Below are positions 16,492 through 51,897 of a stretch of DNA of 64,000 bases, one piece after another (the stretch's first letter is position 1; the number at the start of each line of letters is the position of its first letter). Under the pieces are notes generated by a model that searched no databases, was not told where the DNA came from, and saw nothing but the letters and a program-made list of their open reading frames with translations. A program made the position numbers and the translations under genes. This stretch comes from Cenarchaeum symbiosum A (GTDB lineage: Archaea; Thermoproteota; Nitrososphaeria; Nitrososphaerales; Nitrosopumilaceae). Location: NCBI GenBank assembly GCA_000200715.1, contig DP000238.1, positions 318,832 through 382,831 of the forward strand. The letters run 5' to 3'.

Positions 16492-17583
16492 ATGGACAGG
16501 ATCGTCCTGCACGTGGACTTTGACCACTTCTTTGCCCAGTGCGAGGAGGCCCGGCGGCCGGAACTGCGGTCGGGGCCTGTGGTGGTGTGCGTCTTCTCCG
16601 ACAGGGGGGGCGACAGCGGGGCGGTGGCCACCGCAAACTATGCGGCAAGAAAGTTCGGGGTAAAGTCGGGCATCCCAATAAGTCACGCAAAGAGCAGGCT
16701 ACATGAGGTGCCAGATGCCGTCTTTTTGCCAGCAGACTTTGCCTACTATTCTGGCATCTCGCAGGAGGCGATGGACGAGATGAAGGGGTTTGCAGATGTC
16801 TTTGAGTACGTGGGCAAGGACGAGGCGTACATGGACGTCACCCGGAGGACCGGCGGGGACTACAAAAAGGCCTCGTACCTTGCCCAGCAGGTAAAAAACG
16901 CAGTCAGGCGCAAGACCCGGCTCACCTGTTCTGTCGGCGTTACCCCCAACAGGCTCCTCTCAAAGATCGCATCCGACTACAAAAAGCCCGACGGCCTGAC
17001 TGTCGTGCCCCCCGGGAAGGTTGCCGAGTTTCTAGAGCCCCTGGACATACGGGACATACCGGGGATCGGCGGCAAGACCGAAAAGGCGCTGGCAGAAATG
17101 GGAATCCGTACAGTCGGGCAGATGCGTTCTGTGGATATCTTTGAGCTGCAGCAGAGGTTCGGCAGAAGATCGGGCACCCACATGCACAATGCGGCCCGGG
17201 GGATAGACGACGAGCCGGTCTCCGAGAGGGAGCCCAATGTGCAGCACAGCCGGATAGTCACGCTCAAGAGGGATTCAAACGAGTTTGGATTCCTGGCCGA
17301 GACCCTCGGCGAGCTGTGCAGGGATCTGCATTCTGCTGTGGTAAAGAGGCGGCAGCGCTTCAAATCGGTGGGCATCCAGCTGGTGCAGTCGGATCTTTCC
17401 CAAAAGACGCGCTCGAGGATGCTGCGAAGCCCCGTCTCGGATCTTGAAGTGCTTGAGAAGAGCTCAGTTCAGCTGCTCCGCGAGGCGCTGCGGGACCAGG
17501 AAAAGCCCGTCCGGAGGCTGGGGGTTAGAATCTCGGAGCTCTCCGAGGCGGGAAGCCAGGGCGTGATGGACAGCTATTTCTGA
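16492..17583 (+). CDS. dinB: Y-family DNA polymerase IV (Dpo4/DinB) with C-terminal PIP box
   Basis: Translesion polymerase. The N-terminal HVDFDHFFAQCEE carries the first metal-binding Asp and the palm motif KDEAYMDVT carries the second acidic pair; SVGVTPNRLLSKIASDYKKPDG and the HhH region IPGIGGKTEKAL follow, then the little-finger domain. The last eight residues, QGVMDSYF, fit the PCNA-binding consensus (Q, hydrophobic, two aromatics), as in other archaeal Y-polymerases. A TATA-like box, cctatattag, at about 16461-16470 precedes the ATG by about 25 bases. The 3' end overlaps the archaeosortase gene by 10 bases. Confidence 0.95.
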   Translation: MDRIVLHVDFDHFFAQCEEARRPELRSGPVVVCVFSDRGGDSGAVATANYAARKFGVKSGIPISHAKSRLHEVPDAVFLPADFAYYSGISQEAMDEMKGFADVFEYVGKDEAYMDVTRRTGGDYKKASYLAQQVKNAVRRKTRLTCSVGVTPNRLLSKIASDYKKPDGLTVVPPGKVAEFLEPLDIRDIPGIGGKTEKALAEMGIRTVGQMRSVDIFELQQRFGRRSGTHMHNAARGIDDEPVSEREPNVQHSRIVTLKRDSNEFGFLAETLGELCRDLHSAVVKRRQRFKSVGIQLVQSDLSQKTRSRMLRSPVSDLEVLEKSSVQLLREALRDQEKPVRRLGVRISELSEAGSQGVMDSYF

Positions 17584-18500
17584 GACTGCGCCTTGAGGCG
17601 GGTGAGCCTCCTGCTCTCCACCACCATTACTATGACAAGAAACGCAAAGAGCCACGGCAGGAACATTATCTCGCCTGCAACCGAGTGGAACTCCTCCCAT
17701 TTCGCCGCATCGGTGGTCACCTTGAGGGCGTACCATGACAGCGCGAATATGCGCGCCACATTGACCGCTATGGTGCCGATTATCCCTATTGCAAACCATG
17801 CCGCCTTGCGGCCCCTCGGCACGTTCATCTTTAGGAGAAACGCCATCATTACCAGCGAGTAAATTATGATGCTGTGCACGCCGGCCGACGGCCAGAAGAC
17901 CTGCAGCGCAAACGCGCCGTGATCCCCCCTTAGAAACATCAGGTTGTCGTTTGCGGTGGCCATCCCGAGATCGAACAGGCCTATCAGCCAGACGTTGAGC
18001 TCGACAAGATACGGGACAAAGAACTGCAGGGGCCCAAGGGAATCGTACGGAAAAAACGCATCCAGCGAGAGTATGGCCGCGCTGCCGCCAAGGAATATGG
18101 GCCCCGCCGGGGCTATCCTCACCCACTTTTTGCCAAAGTATATCGCGAGCGCCACGGATACAAAGGCAGTCATCACCGCAAAGTCCCACAGCCAGATCCA
18201 CGAGTAGACAAGCTCCACGCCGAAATCGGGGGCAGCCGCCTCTATCTGCTCGCGCAGGCCGTTCTCGACTGCTATGATGTACGCTATGACTGCTGCAGCC
18301 AGCGGGATTGTCGCAAGCAGCCTCCTTGTAGATACGCCCATTCTCAGCCCTACAAGCTCGGCTGCGACAAAGGCCAGCCCGAAGAGAAACCCGCCCCTGC
18401 CCTGGTTCCAGCTCAGCCCGAAGGTCTCCGAGTATGCGGCCAGCGTGAAGAGGATCGGCGCCGAGACTATCGCTATGGCAAGGATGAGGTTTCTTTGCAA
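17574..18500 (-). CDS. Archaeosortase-family membrane transpeptidase (thaumarchaeal type)
   Basis: The 308-residue product has about eight hydrophobic helices. The late part shows the exosortase/archaeosortase signature: WPSAGVHS (Ser205), NVARI (Arg250) and FHSVAGEIMF (His272). In the classical enzymes the first position is a Cys nucleophile; here it is Ser, a difference I recall for thaumarchaeal members but could not check. Such enzymes process proteins with a C-terminal PEF/PEFG motif, helix and basic tail. A PEFG-CTERM protein is encoded at 51043-51897. Convergent with dinB (10-base overlap). Confidence 0.8.
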   Translation of the reverse strand: MQRNLILAIAIVSAPILFTLAAYSETFGLSWNQGRGGFLFGLAFVAAELVGLRMGVSTRRLLATIPLAAAVIAYIIAVENGLREQIEAAAPDFGVELVYSWIWLWDFAVMTAFVSVALAIYFGKKWVRIAPAGPIFLGGSAAILSLDAFFPYDSLGPLQFFVPYLVELNVWLIGLFDLGMATANDNLMFLRGDHGAFALQVFWPSAGVHSIIIYSLVMMAFLLKMNVPRGRKAAWFAIGIIGTIAVNVARIFALSWYALKVTTDAAKWEEFHSVAGEIMFLPWLFAFLVIVMVVESRRLTRLKAQSQK

Positions 18501-27171: not shown

Positions 27172-27822
27172 ATGGTCTGGCTAAGACGCTGTACCCACTA
27201 CTTGTTCATAGCAGTGGTTGCAGTGAATTCGACCCTGTTGACGATCAATGCAGGAGATTACATCTTTTACACCGACTGGGCTTGGACGTCATTCACGGTA
27301 TTCTCTATATCGCAGACGCTCATGCTGGTTGTCGGTGCAACGTACTACCTGACGTTTACAGGCGTACCCGGAACCGCGACATACTATGCCCTCATCATGA
27401 CGGTGTATGTATGGATAGCAAAGGGCGCATGGTTCGCCCTTGGCTACCCGTATGACTTCATCGCGACCCCGATATGGCTTCCATCAGCAATGCTGTTGGA
27501 TCTGGCATACTGGGCCACGAAGCGCAACAAGCACTCGCTGATATTGTTCGGCGGTGTCTTGGTGGGCATGTCATTACCGCTGTTCAACATGGTAAACCTG
27601 ATCACAGTAGCAGATCCGCTGGAGACGGCCTTCAAGTATCCGAGGCCCACGCTGCCACCCTACATGACTCCAATAGAACCTCAAGTTGGAAAGTTCTATA
27701 ACAGTCCGGTGGCGCTAGGGGCTGGGGCTGGGGCCGTCTTATCGGTGACGTTCGCGGCCTTGGGTGTCAAGCTCAATACGTGGACGTATCGGTGGATGGC
27801 CGCTTGGTCAAAGTGGGACTAG
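27172..27822 (+). CDS. amoA: Ammonia monooxygenase subunit A (archaeal type)
   Basis: Integral-membrane subunit A of the archaeal ammonia monooxygenase. The 216-residue product begins MVWLRRCTHYLFIAVVAVN, the conserved archaeal AmoA start, at ATG 27172; an in-frame ATG at 27157 would add 5 residues, and the frame to 27082 is not needed. NAGDYIFYTDWAWTS and WLPSAMLLDLAYWATKRNK are highly conserved family segments, with about five or six helices overall. The strong TATA box upstream and optimised codons suggest high expression. Confidence 0.98.
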   Translation: MVWLRRCTHYLFIAVVAVNSTLLTINAGDYIFYTDWAWTSFTVFSISQTLMLVVGATYYLTFTGVPGTATYYALIMTVYVWIAKGAWFALGYPYDFIATPIWLPSAMLLDLAYWATKRNKHSLILFGGVLVGMSLPLFNMVNLITVADPLETAFKYPRPTLPPYMTPIEPQVGKFYNSPVALGAGAGAVLSVTFAALGVKLNTWTYRWMAAWSKWD

Positions 27823-51042: not shown

Positions 51043-51897
51043 CTAGTACCTGGGTATTATGCTCAGTCCAGACCTTGCCGTGACGGCTATTATCGAGACT
51101 ATTGCAACTGCCAGCACCAGCACTGCGACCGTGCCGAACTCTGGTATCACTACACAGTCCCTTATCTCAACCTGGTGTACATCCTTGTACAGAATGTTCT
51201 CTTCTTGCTGTATCGTTATGGTGTACATGCCGTCTTGCGCCCAGTTCGGGCAGCCTACGTTTATCGTGGCCTCAAAGTCGCCGCTTGCATCGGGAGATAG
51301 CTGGTCTGTGTGTATTAGGTTGCCGTTGGGGGCGGTCACTACCATGGTGACGTCAGTATGCAGGTGGTCTGTATTGCCGTTTATGCCCATCTCGAGTGCT
51401 CCCTCGGGCGCGTCAACAGTAAAGCTCAGACCGCTTATCCTGTTATCTGGCCGGACGGTTGTGGCACTGGAAAGATCAAGTGATGATGTAGTCTCGTCTA
51501 TGTTGCCCAGAACCCCGCCGGTGATCATCACCCTGACATTAAGGTCGTACAGATTGGCATCGCTCTGGTACGCCCTTATCGTGTACACTCCGTCCTGTAT
51601 TCCCAGTATGCCGTCGCCAAGCTGGACCTCTGTCCGGTAGTTGCCATCACGGTCCGGGGCTTTCTGATCTATGCCCACTATGTTGCCGTTTGGGGCCTGC
51701 ACCGTTATTGATACATCGCCGAGCGCCCTGTTGGTGGTCATCCCGCTTACTGTAAGAGCAGTTGAGCCGGCTTCGGCGAATACGTTTAGTGACATTCCTA
51801 TCCCCTGGGCGGAGACGGATCCCACCAAGGGGCCGGCCGCCATGAATACCGCCAGCATCAGCACGGGGATCAGCCTTGCGCTTTTGCGGGGGTTCAT
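51043..51897 (-). CDS. Secreted PEFG-CTERM surface protein
   Basis: The N-terminus is a signal peptide (MNPRKSARLIPVLMLAVFMAAG, cut near VSAQG). The mature part is beta-rich with two repeated units of macroglobulin/Ig type, seen by ITVQAPNGNIVGIDQ and VVTAPNGNLIHTDQLSPD. The C-terminus has IPEFG, a hydrophobic helix (TVAVLVLAVAIVSIIAV) and a basic end (ARSGLSIIPRY): the PEFG-CTERM sorting signal. It is the probable substrate of the archaeosortase encoded at 17574-18500. A TATA box (cataaatag, minus strand) lies at about 51926-51934. Confidence 0.9.
   Translation of the reverse strand: MNPRKSARLIPVLMLAVFMAAGPLVGSVSAQGIGMSLNVFAEAGSTALTVSGMTTNRALGDVSITVQAPNGNIVGIDQKAPDRDGNYRTEVQLGDGILGIQDGVYTIRAYQSDANLYDLNVRVMITGGVLGNIDETTSSLDLSSATTVRPDNRISGLSFTVDAPEGALEMGINGNTDHLHTDVTMVVTAPNGNLIHTDQLSPDASGDFEATINVGCPNWAQDGMYTITIQQEENILYKDVHQVEIRDCVVIPEFGTVAVLVLAVAIVSIIAVTARSGLSIIPRY

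Follow-up and report, generated by a model that had tools for sequence, protein, structure and literature searches.

A probable serine archaeosortase in Cenarchaeum symbiosum, and the repeated replacement of the catalytic cysteine by serine among related archaeal enzymes

The archaeosortase encoded in a 64,000-nucleotide stretch of the Cenarchaeum symbiosum A genome (the whole of which is called the window below) is probably an active serine enzyme, in which Ser has replaced the catalytic Cys. Judging from alignments, this Ser is a fixed property of the catalogued family TIGR04297 and not a quirk of the window gene.

A preliminary description of this DNA, made from the sequence alone, had placed an archaeosortase at positions 17574-18500. 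These coordinates are correct, and the strand, which had not been given, is the minus strand. The open reading frame runs from 18500 to 17574, encodes 308 amino acids and starts with a TTG lying directly 3' of an in-frame TAG. The features of the enzyme gene are the following:

17574..18500, minus strand: thaumarchaeosortase (archaeosortase family, TIGR04297), 308 aa, TTG start, with Ser205/Arg250/His272 and the helper candidate Glu269
17886..17888, minus strand: codon TCG of Ser205 (motif WPSAG, in the place of the archaeosortase Cys), position computed from the start of the reading frame
17751..17753, minus strand: codon of Arg250, invariant in the alignment
17694..17696, minus strand: codon of Glu269, which precedes the catalytic His by three residues in the alignment
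17685..17687, minus strand: codon of His272, invariant in the alignment

A profile search with the NCBIfam model TIGR04297 (thaumarchaeosortase) gave 488 bits (cut-off 250). With E = 1.3e-146 the match is far above chance, and it covers residues 7-306 of the enzyme and positions 2-301 of the 307 in the profile, as expected of a full-length member. The core model of the exosortase/archaeosortase superfamily, TIGR04178, was also matched above its cut-off (44.8 bits, cut-off 23), and Exosortase_EpsH (PF09721) scored 16.1 bits, below its gathering cut-off of 25.7. Archaeosortase C (TIGR03762), a family with a Cys nucleophile, shares a similar PEF motif in its PEF-CTERM substrates and gave a weak match to the window enzyme (32 bits, below the cut-off of 100). 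The C. symbiosum genome contains one TIGR04297 gene, which is its single archaeosortase. The nearest named relative, from an uncultured Cenarchaeum, is 80% identical, and no related solved structure was found in the PDB, by sequence or by fold. A DNA polymerase IV (DinB-like) gene at 16492-17583 on the plus strand is convergent with the archaeosortase gene and overlaps it by 10 bases. It is the sole neighbour kept in all relatives examined (38/38), and the gene neighbourhood was therefore uninformative as a clue to archaeosortase function.

Residues 205, 250 and 272 of the enzyme are Ser, Arg and His, exactly as had been read beforehand for the counterpart of the classical Cys/Arg/His triad. 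The preliminary description had asked whether this Ser is invariant in thaumarchaeota. Among the relatives taken by profile search, 57 from about 25 genera cover the site, and all 57 carry Ser205/Arg250/His272 with the motif WPSAG; Ser is thus family-wide in this sample, and the window enzyme shows no difference from its family. The codons for Ser at position 205 of these WPSAG relatives are all of the TCN type. The Cys-type comparison set comprised 77 archaeosortases obtained from TIGR04178 searches over the class and the phylum and from fetched stretches. Over 108 aligned enzymes, column 205 holds Ser in 31, Cys in 77 and no other residue, and the Arg250 and His272 columns are kept in 108/108, in line with the superfamily pattern of an Arg followed by His, Arg or Asn. 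The catalytic Cys that belongs to the TIGR04178 pattern is replaced by Ser in the window enzyme, in a column where all 77 Cys-type relatives have Cys, so that the concern that an alignment might place the nucleophile elsewhere did not materialize. By descent, as far as sequence can tell, the window enzyme is a Ser variant within this superfamily.

A substitute Cys elsewhere in the protein was ruled out. The window enzyme has no cysteines, 35 of 56 full-length relatives lack Cys altogether and in no column of the alignment do more than 2 of the 59 sequences have Cys, which excludes a hidden Cys nucleophile. S100 and S205 are the only invariant serines among the Ser-type relatives; E48, D147, N32 and N247 are likewise invariant there, and E48, D147 and N247 are conserved in the Cys enzymes too. 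His209 was considered as a Ser-specific base and rejected, as many Cys enzymes, too, have a polar residue there.

An AlphaFold2 model of the enzyme, computed with 29 relatives (mean pLDDT 87, pTM 0.83), places S205 just ahead of helix 208-224, R250 in helix 229-261 and H272 in helix 265-307. The loop charges assign both termini and the loops 53-60, 122-130 and 223-233 to the cytoplasm, and region 150-207 to the outside. Model secondary structure and loop charges together agree with the superfamily architecture, in which about eight helices span the membrane and the active site faces outwards. Ser205, Arg250 and His272 are predicted to sit where adjacent helices reach the outer face, at the same height in the membrane as the PEFG motif of the substrate, whose helix and basic tail are oriented inwards in this topology.

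The predicted substrate encoded in the window has the following features:

51043..51897, minus strand: PEFG-CTERM protein, predicted substrate, 284 aa, with a signal-peptide-like start, a PPC-like body and PEFG followed by a helix and a basic tail
51064..51150 (genome C1:369895-369981), minus strand: PEFG-CTERM sorting signal (VIPEFGTVAVLVLAVAIVSIIAVTARSGL), TIGR04296 match

Its C-terminus reads VIPEFGTVAVLVLAVAIVSIIAVTARSGLSIIPRY, with IPEFG, a hydrophobic helix and then arginines, and matches TIGR04296 with 44.3 bits (cut-off 25), confirming the protein with signal peptide and PEFG ending that had been proposed at this place. The remark that enzyme and substrate occur in one window holds for the presence of the gene, but not for its proximity, which is unremarkable: with 8 such genes in a 2.05-Mb genome, the chance of finding one in the same 64-kb window is about 22%, so that physical closeness carries no weight. 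These 8 genes above the cut-off came from the genome-wide search that had been suggested; all have the tripartite tail and most have a readable N-terminal signal segment. Three PEFG-CTERM genes (L002, L003 and L008) stand in tandem on the same strand at about 1578.7-1580.7 kb of genome C1.

Co-occurrence was analysed in 220 genomes of the class with a completeness of 90% or more and contamination of no more than 5%. TIGR04297 matches were present in 158 of them and PEFG-CTERM proteins in 150, namely in 150/158 TIGR04297-positive versus 0/62 negative genomes. The association is strong, with shared ancestry contributing to it. A family devoid of PEFG partners would have spoken against the preliminary description; partners were found throughout the clade, and the pairing of enzyme and PEFG-CTERM signal is genuine and has previously been recorded in NCBIfam. 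The eight positive genomes without PEFG-CTERM belong mostly to deep or low-scoring lineages, and for one of them (G006) the matching protein is a Cys protein (WPCAG). The deep Ser-type lineages have no PEFG-CTERM above the cut-off and carry IPEFP-like tails instead. Three amoA-positive genomes of one genus (G070, G099 and G126; genus g24) have neither an archaeosortase match nor PEFG-CTERM above threshold.

PEF-type tails were also found in Cys-type genomes. A tie between Ser and a change of sorting motif is therefore not supported, and Ser did not arrive with a wholly new motif. One genome (G004) encodes a Cys-type archaeosortase (L080) adjoining a small protein that ends in a PEF-type tail (L251; G004:C2, about 252.5-253.5 kb), possibly a dedicated enzyme-substrate pair; the same genome also encodes a Ser-type enzyme (L066).

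In the trees, the Ser clade of the thaumarchaeosortases is nested among Cys enzymes. Seven Cys enzymes whose motifs are of the WPCAGVLS type form its sister group (99/98 for the joint clade), and more Cys enzymes branch outside. The long-form Cys archaeosortases enclose another Ser group (L069, L071-L074 and L096), with the motifs EPSSG and VASSG. Its members (L069:925-2937, L071, L072, the partial L073, L074 and L096) are about 600-755 aa long, and 5/6 come from genomes also carrying a short Ser enzyme. On a tree computed with every catalytic residue masked, parsimony gave two Cys/Ser changes, and an AU test, again with the catalytic residues masked, rejected a single Ser clade (p = 1.8e-7). 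According to these trees Ser arose at least twice, the second Ser clade being independent and belonging to the long-form archaeosortases. The codons of the long group are mixed (AGT in L069 and L096, TCA in L071-L074), so that there may have been more than one event within it.

The window also contains an archaeal amoA gene (PF12942, about 27217-27765, plus strand), which marks C. symbiosum as an ammonia oxidiser, and amoA was present in 20/50 genomes tested. Because Ser-type enzymes also occur in lineages without amoA (G165, G188, G213, G275, G282, G314, G342 and G004), Ser most likely predates ammonia oxidation, and an adaptation to ammonia oxidation was rejected as its origin.

Glu269 is a candidate for a compensating residue. 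It is one of the positions that hardly vary in the Ser clade and stands three residues, or one helical turn, before His272 in the same predicted helix, and Glu is found at this position in 29/31 Ser enzymes (23/25 short and 6/6 long) versus 8/77 Cys enzymes, which have Lys or Arg in the sister clade and mixed residues elsewhere. Pro282, ten residues after His272, is present in 25/25 short and 4/6 long Ser enzymes versus 0/77 Cys enzymes. The raw Fisher p value for Glu269 is about 1e-16, a figure that ignores relatedness. The tree offers two independent contrasts only, both in the expected direction, a number with which a sign test cannot reach significance; at the background of 8/77, two Glu hits would be expected about once per hundred. 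We therefore treat the association of Glu269 with Ser in these sequences as a lead. It is conceivable, with the balance somewhat against it, that Nitrososphaeria archaeosortases crossed from Cys to Ser chemistry at least twice, each time together with a Glu that precedes the catalytic His by one turn, giving a convergent Ser-His-Glu relay in a membrane transpeptidase.

A mechanism can be proposed by homology to ArtA of Haloferax volcanii, in which Cys173, Arg214 and Arg253 are critical (PMC9263693) and for which a published, speculative model lets archaetidylethanolamine resolve a thioester formed on the catalytic Cys (PMC7157517). The counterpart in the Ser enzyme would be an oxyester. An active enzyme that passes through such an oxyester acyl-enzyme on the outer side of the membrane, perhaps helped by a Ser-His-Glu relay, is the best reading and in our judgement a likely one. 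The eight membrane helices would set Ser205, Arg250 and His272 at the outer face, beside the PEFG motif ahead of the C-terminal helix of the substrate. Ser205 would attack the peptide bond near PEFG, releasing the helix and basic tail, and would briefly hold the surface protein as an oxyester, as opposed to the thioester on Cys. The acyl group would then pass to water or to an acceptor, for which a lipid head group is the probable choice. Glu269, one turn earlier, would polarise His272, which could act as the base needed to activate a serine, a weaker acid than cysteine, and Arg250 may stabilise the oxyanion or bind the substrate. The chemistry would thus differ from that of the Cys-type enzymes. 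Against this reading stand, among others, the deep Ser-type lineages without PEFG-CTERM above the cut-off, the limitation of the Glu association to two independent origins and the lack of PssD described below.

The window enzyme resembles ArtA as a multi-helix membrane enzyme with an Arg, a basic third residue and substrates bearing a tripartite C-terminal signal. It differs in having Ser for Cys, His for the second Arg and PEFG for PGF, and in a genome without PssD, an enzyme that is part of the proposed route to archaetidylethanolamine as the ArtA acceptor (PMC7157517). A search for PssD (archaetidylserine decarboxylase, PF02666) was negative in C. symbiosum and in 49/50 genomes tested, i.e. 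in all Ser-type and nearly all Cys-type genomes tested in the phylum. The acceptor must therefore differ from archaetidylethanolamine or be made otherwise, and a link between Ser and the loss of this route is not supported, since PssD is also gone from nearly all Cys-type genomes. The Cys-type archaeosortases of Thermoproteota (WPCAG/WPCSG; L128-L162) have the same motifs as the window enzyme, to which they are sister or outgroup, and their genomes have PEF-type tails; they differ in having Cys at 205 and, at the place of Glu269, Lys/Arg in the sister clade and a mixture of residues in the others. Rhombosortase, which acts on GlyGly-CTERM proteins, is likewise a serine membrane enzyme recognising a tripartite C-terminal signal (PMC11980579); it belongs to the unrelated rhomboid family and is an analogy only.

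Pseudoenzymes often arise when the nucleophile is lost, and here Ser might have followed a loss of catalysis, leaving a protein that only binds or escorts PEFG proteins. The distant relative ArtA of Haloferax reportedly fails to process its substrates when it carries C173S. In ArtA, then, Ser would not simply stand in for Cys, which counts against an active enzyme here; a bare Cys-to-Ser swap would be insufficient and some compensation would be expected. Against a dead protein, Arg and His are invariant together with Ser although identities to the window protein reach down to 29%, and the site shows none of the drift to Ala, Gly or Thr that would be expected. The PEFG signals have been kept in 150/158 genomes, enzyme and PEFG are jointly absent elsewhere, and Ser has at least two separate origins, accompanied by the same Glu. 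We regard the pseudoenzyme as improbable: fixed across an archaeal group and of repeated origin, the Ser enzyme looks, from its sequences, like a working variant rather than a broken copy.

Ser205 could also be structural in an active enzyme, with S100, D147/E48 or a His-activated water as the reacting group and simple hydrolysis without an acyl-enzyme. The other invariant residues (S100, E48, D147, N32 and N247), three of which (E48, D147 and N247) are kept in the Cys enzymes, would allow this, but 205 is the sole catalytic position of the three at which Cys and Ser enzymes differ, and it holds nucleophilic residues only; we give this alternative little chance. Still less credible, in our view, is an active enzyme for which PEFG-CTERM proteins are not the main substrate set, the pairing being a lineage effect. 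The co-occurrence is indeed confounded by phylogeny, and the Ser enzymes of the deep lineages go with IPEFP-like tails in place of PEFG above the cut-off. The PEFG signal is nevertheless tripartite and fits the archaeosortase substrate pattern, the genome has one archaeosortase, and the ammonia-oxidiser genus without the enzyme (G070, G099 and G126) is also without PEFG above threshold.

The family TIGR04297 and the substrate signal TIGR04296 are known, the family alignment necessarily contains the Ser, and it is quite possible that the curators of TIGR04297 remarked on it. In the searchable literature we found no discussion of this Ser nor the word thaumarchaeosortase, and PEFG-CTERM is mentioned there in other contexts, proteomics and transcription (PMC9122916). 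The new elements are the repeated origin of Ser, its association with Glu and its presence in lineages without amoA.

Archaeosortases have been described as Cys enzymes working via a thioester. A Ser form that is constant throughout a large clade and still tracks its substrates suggests that the nucleophile is exchangeable in nature, with Glu269 as a testable compensator. Going by sequence, the window enzyme is the likely maturase of surface proteins of ammonia-oxidising archaea, which it would trim and then anchor to the cell. These proteins would include a PEFG-CTERM multicopper oxidase, whose transcription is correlated with that of amoABC in an ammonia oxidiser from a lake (PMC9122916). 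Inhibitors directed at thiols should leave the Ser enzyme untouched, and a convergent Ser-His-Glu relay, if true, would be a natural experiment on the conversion of a thiol enzyme into a serine enzyme.
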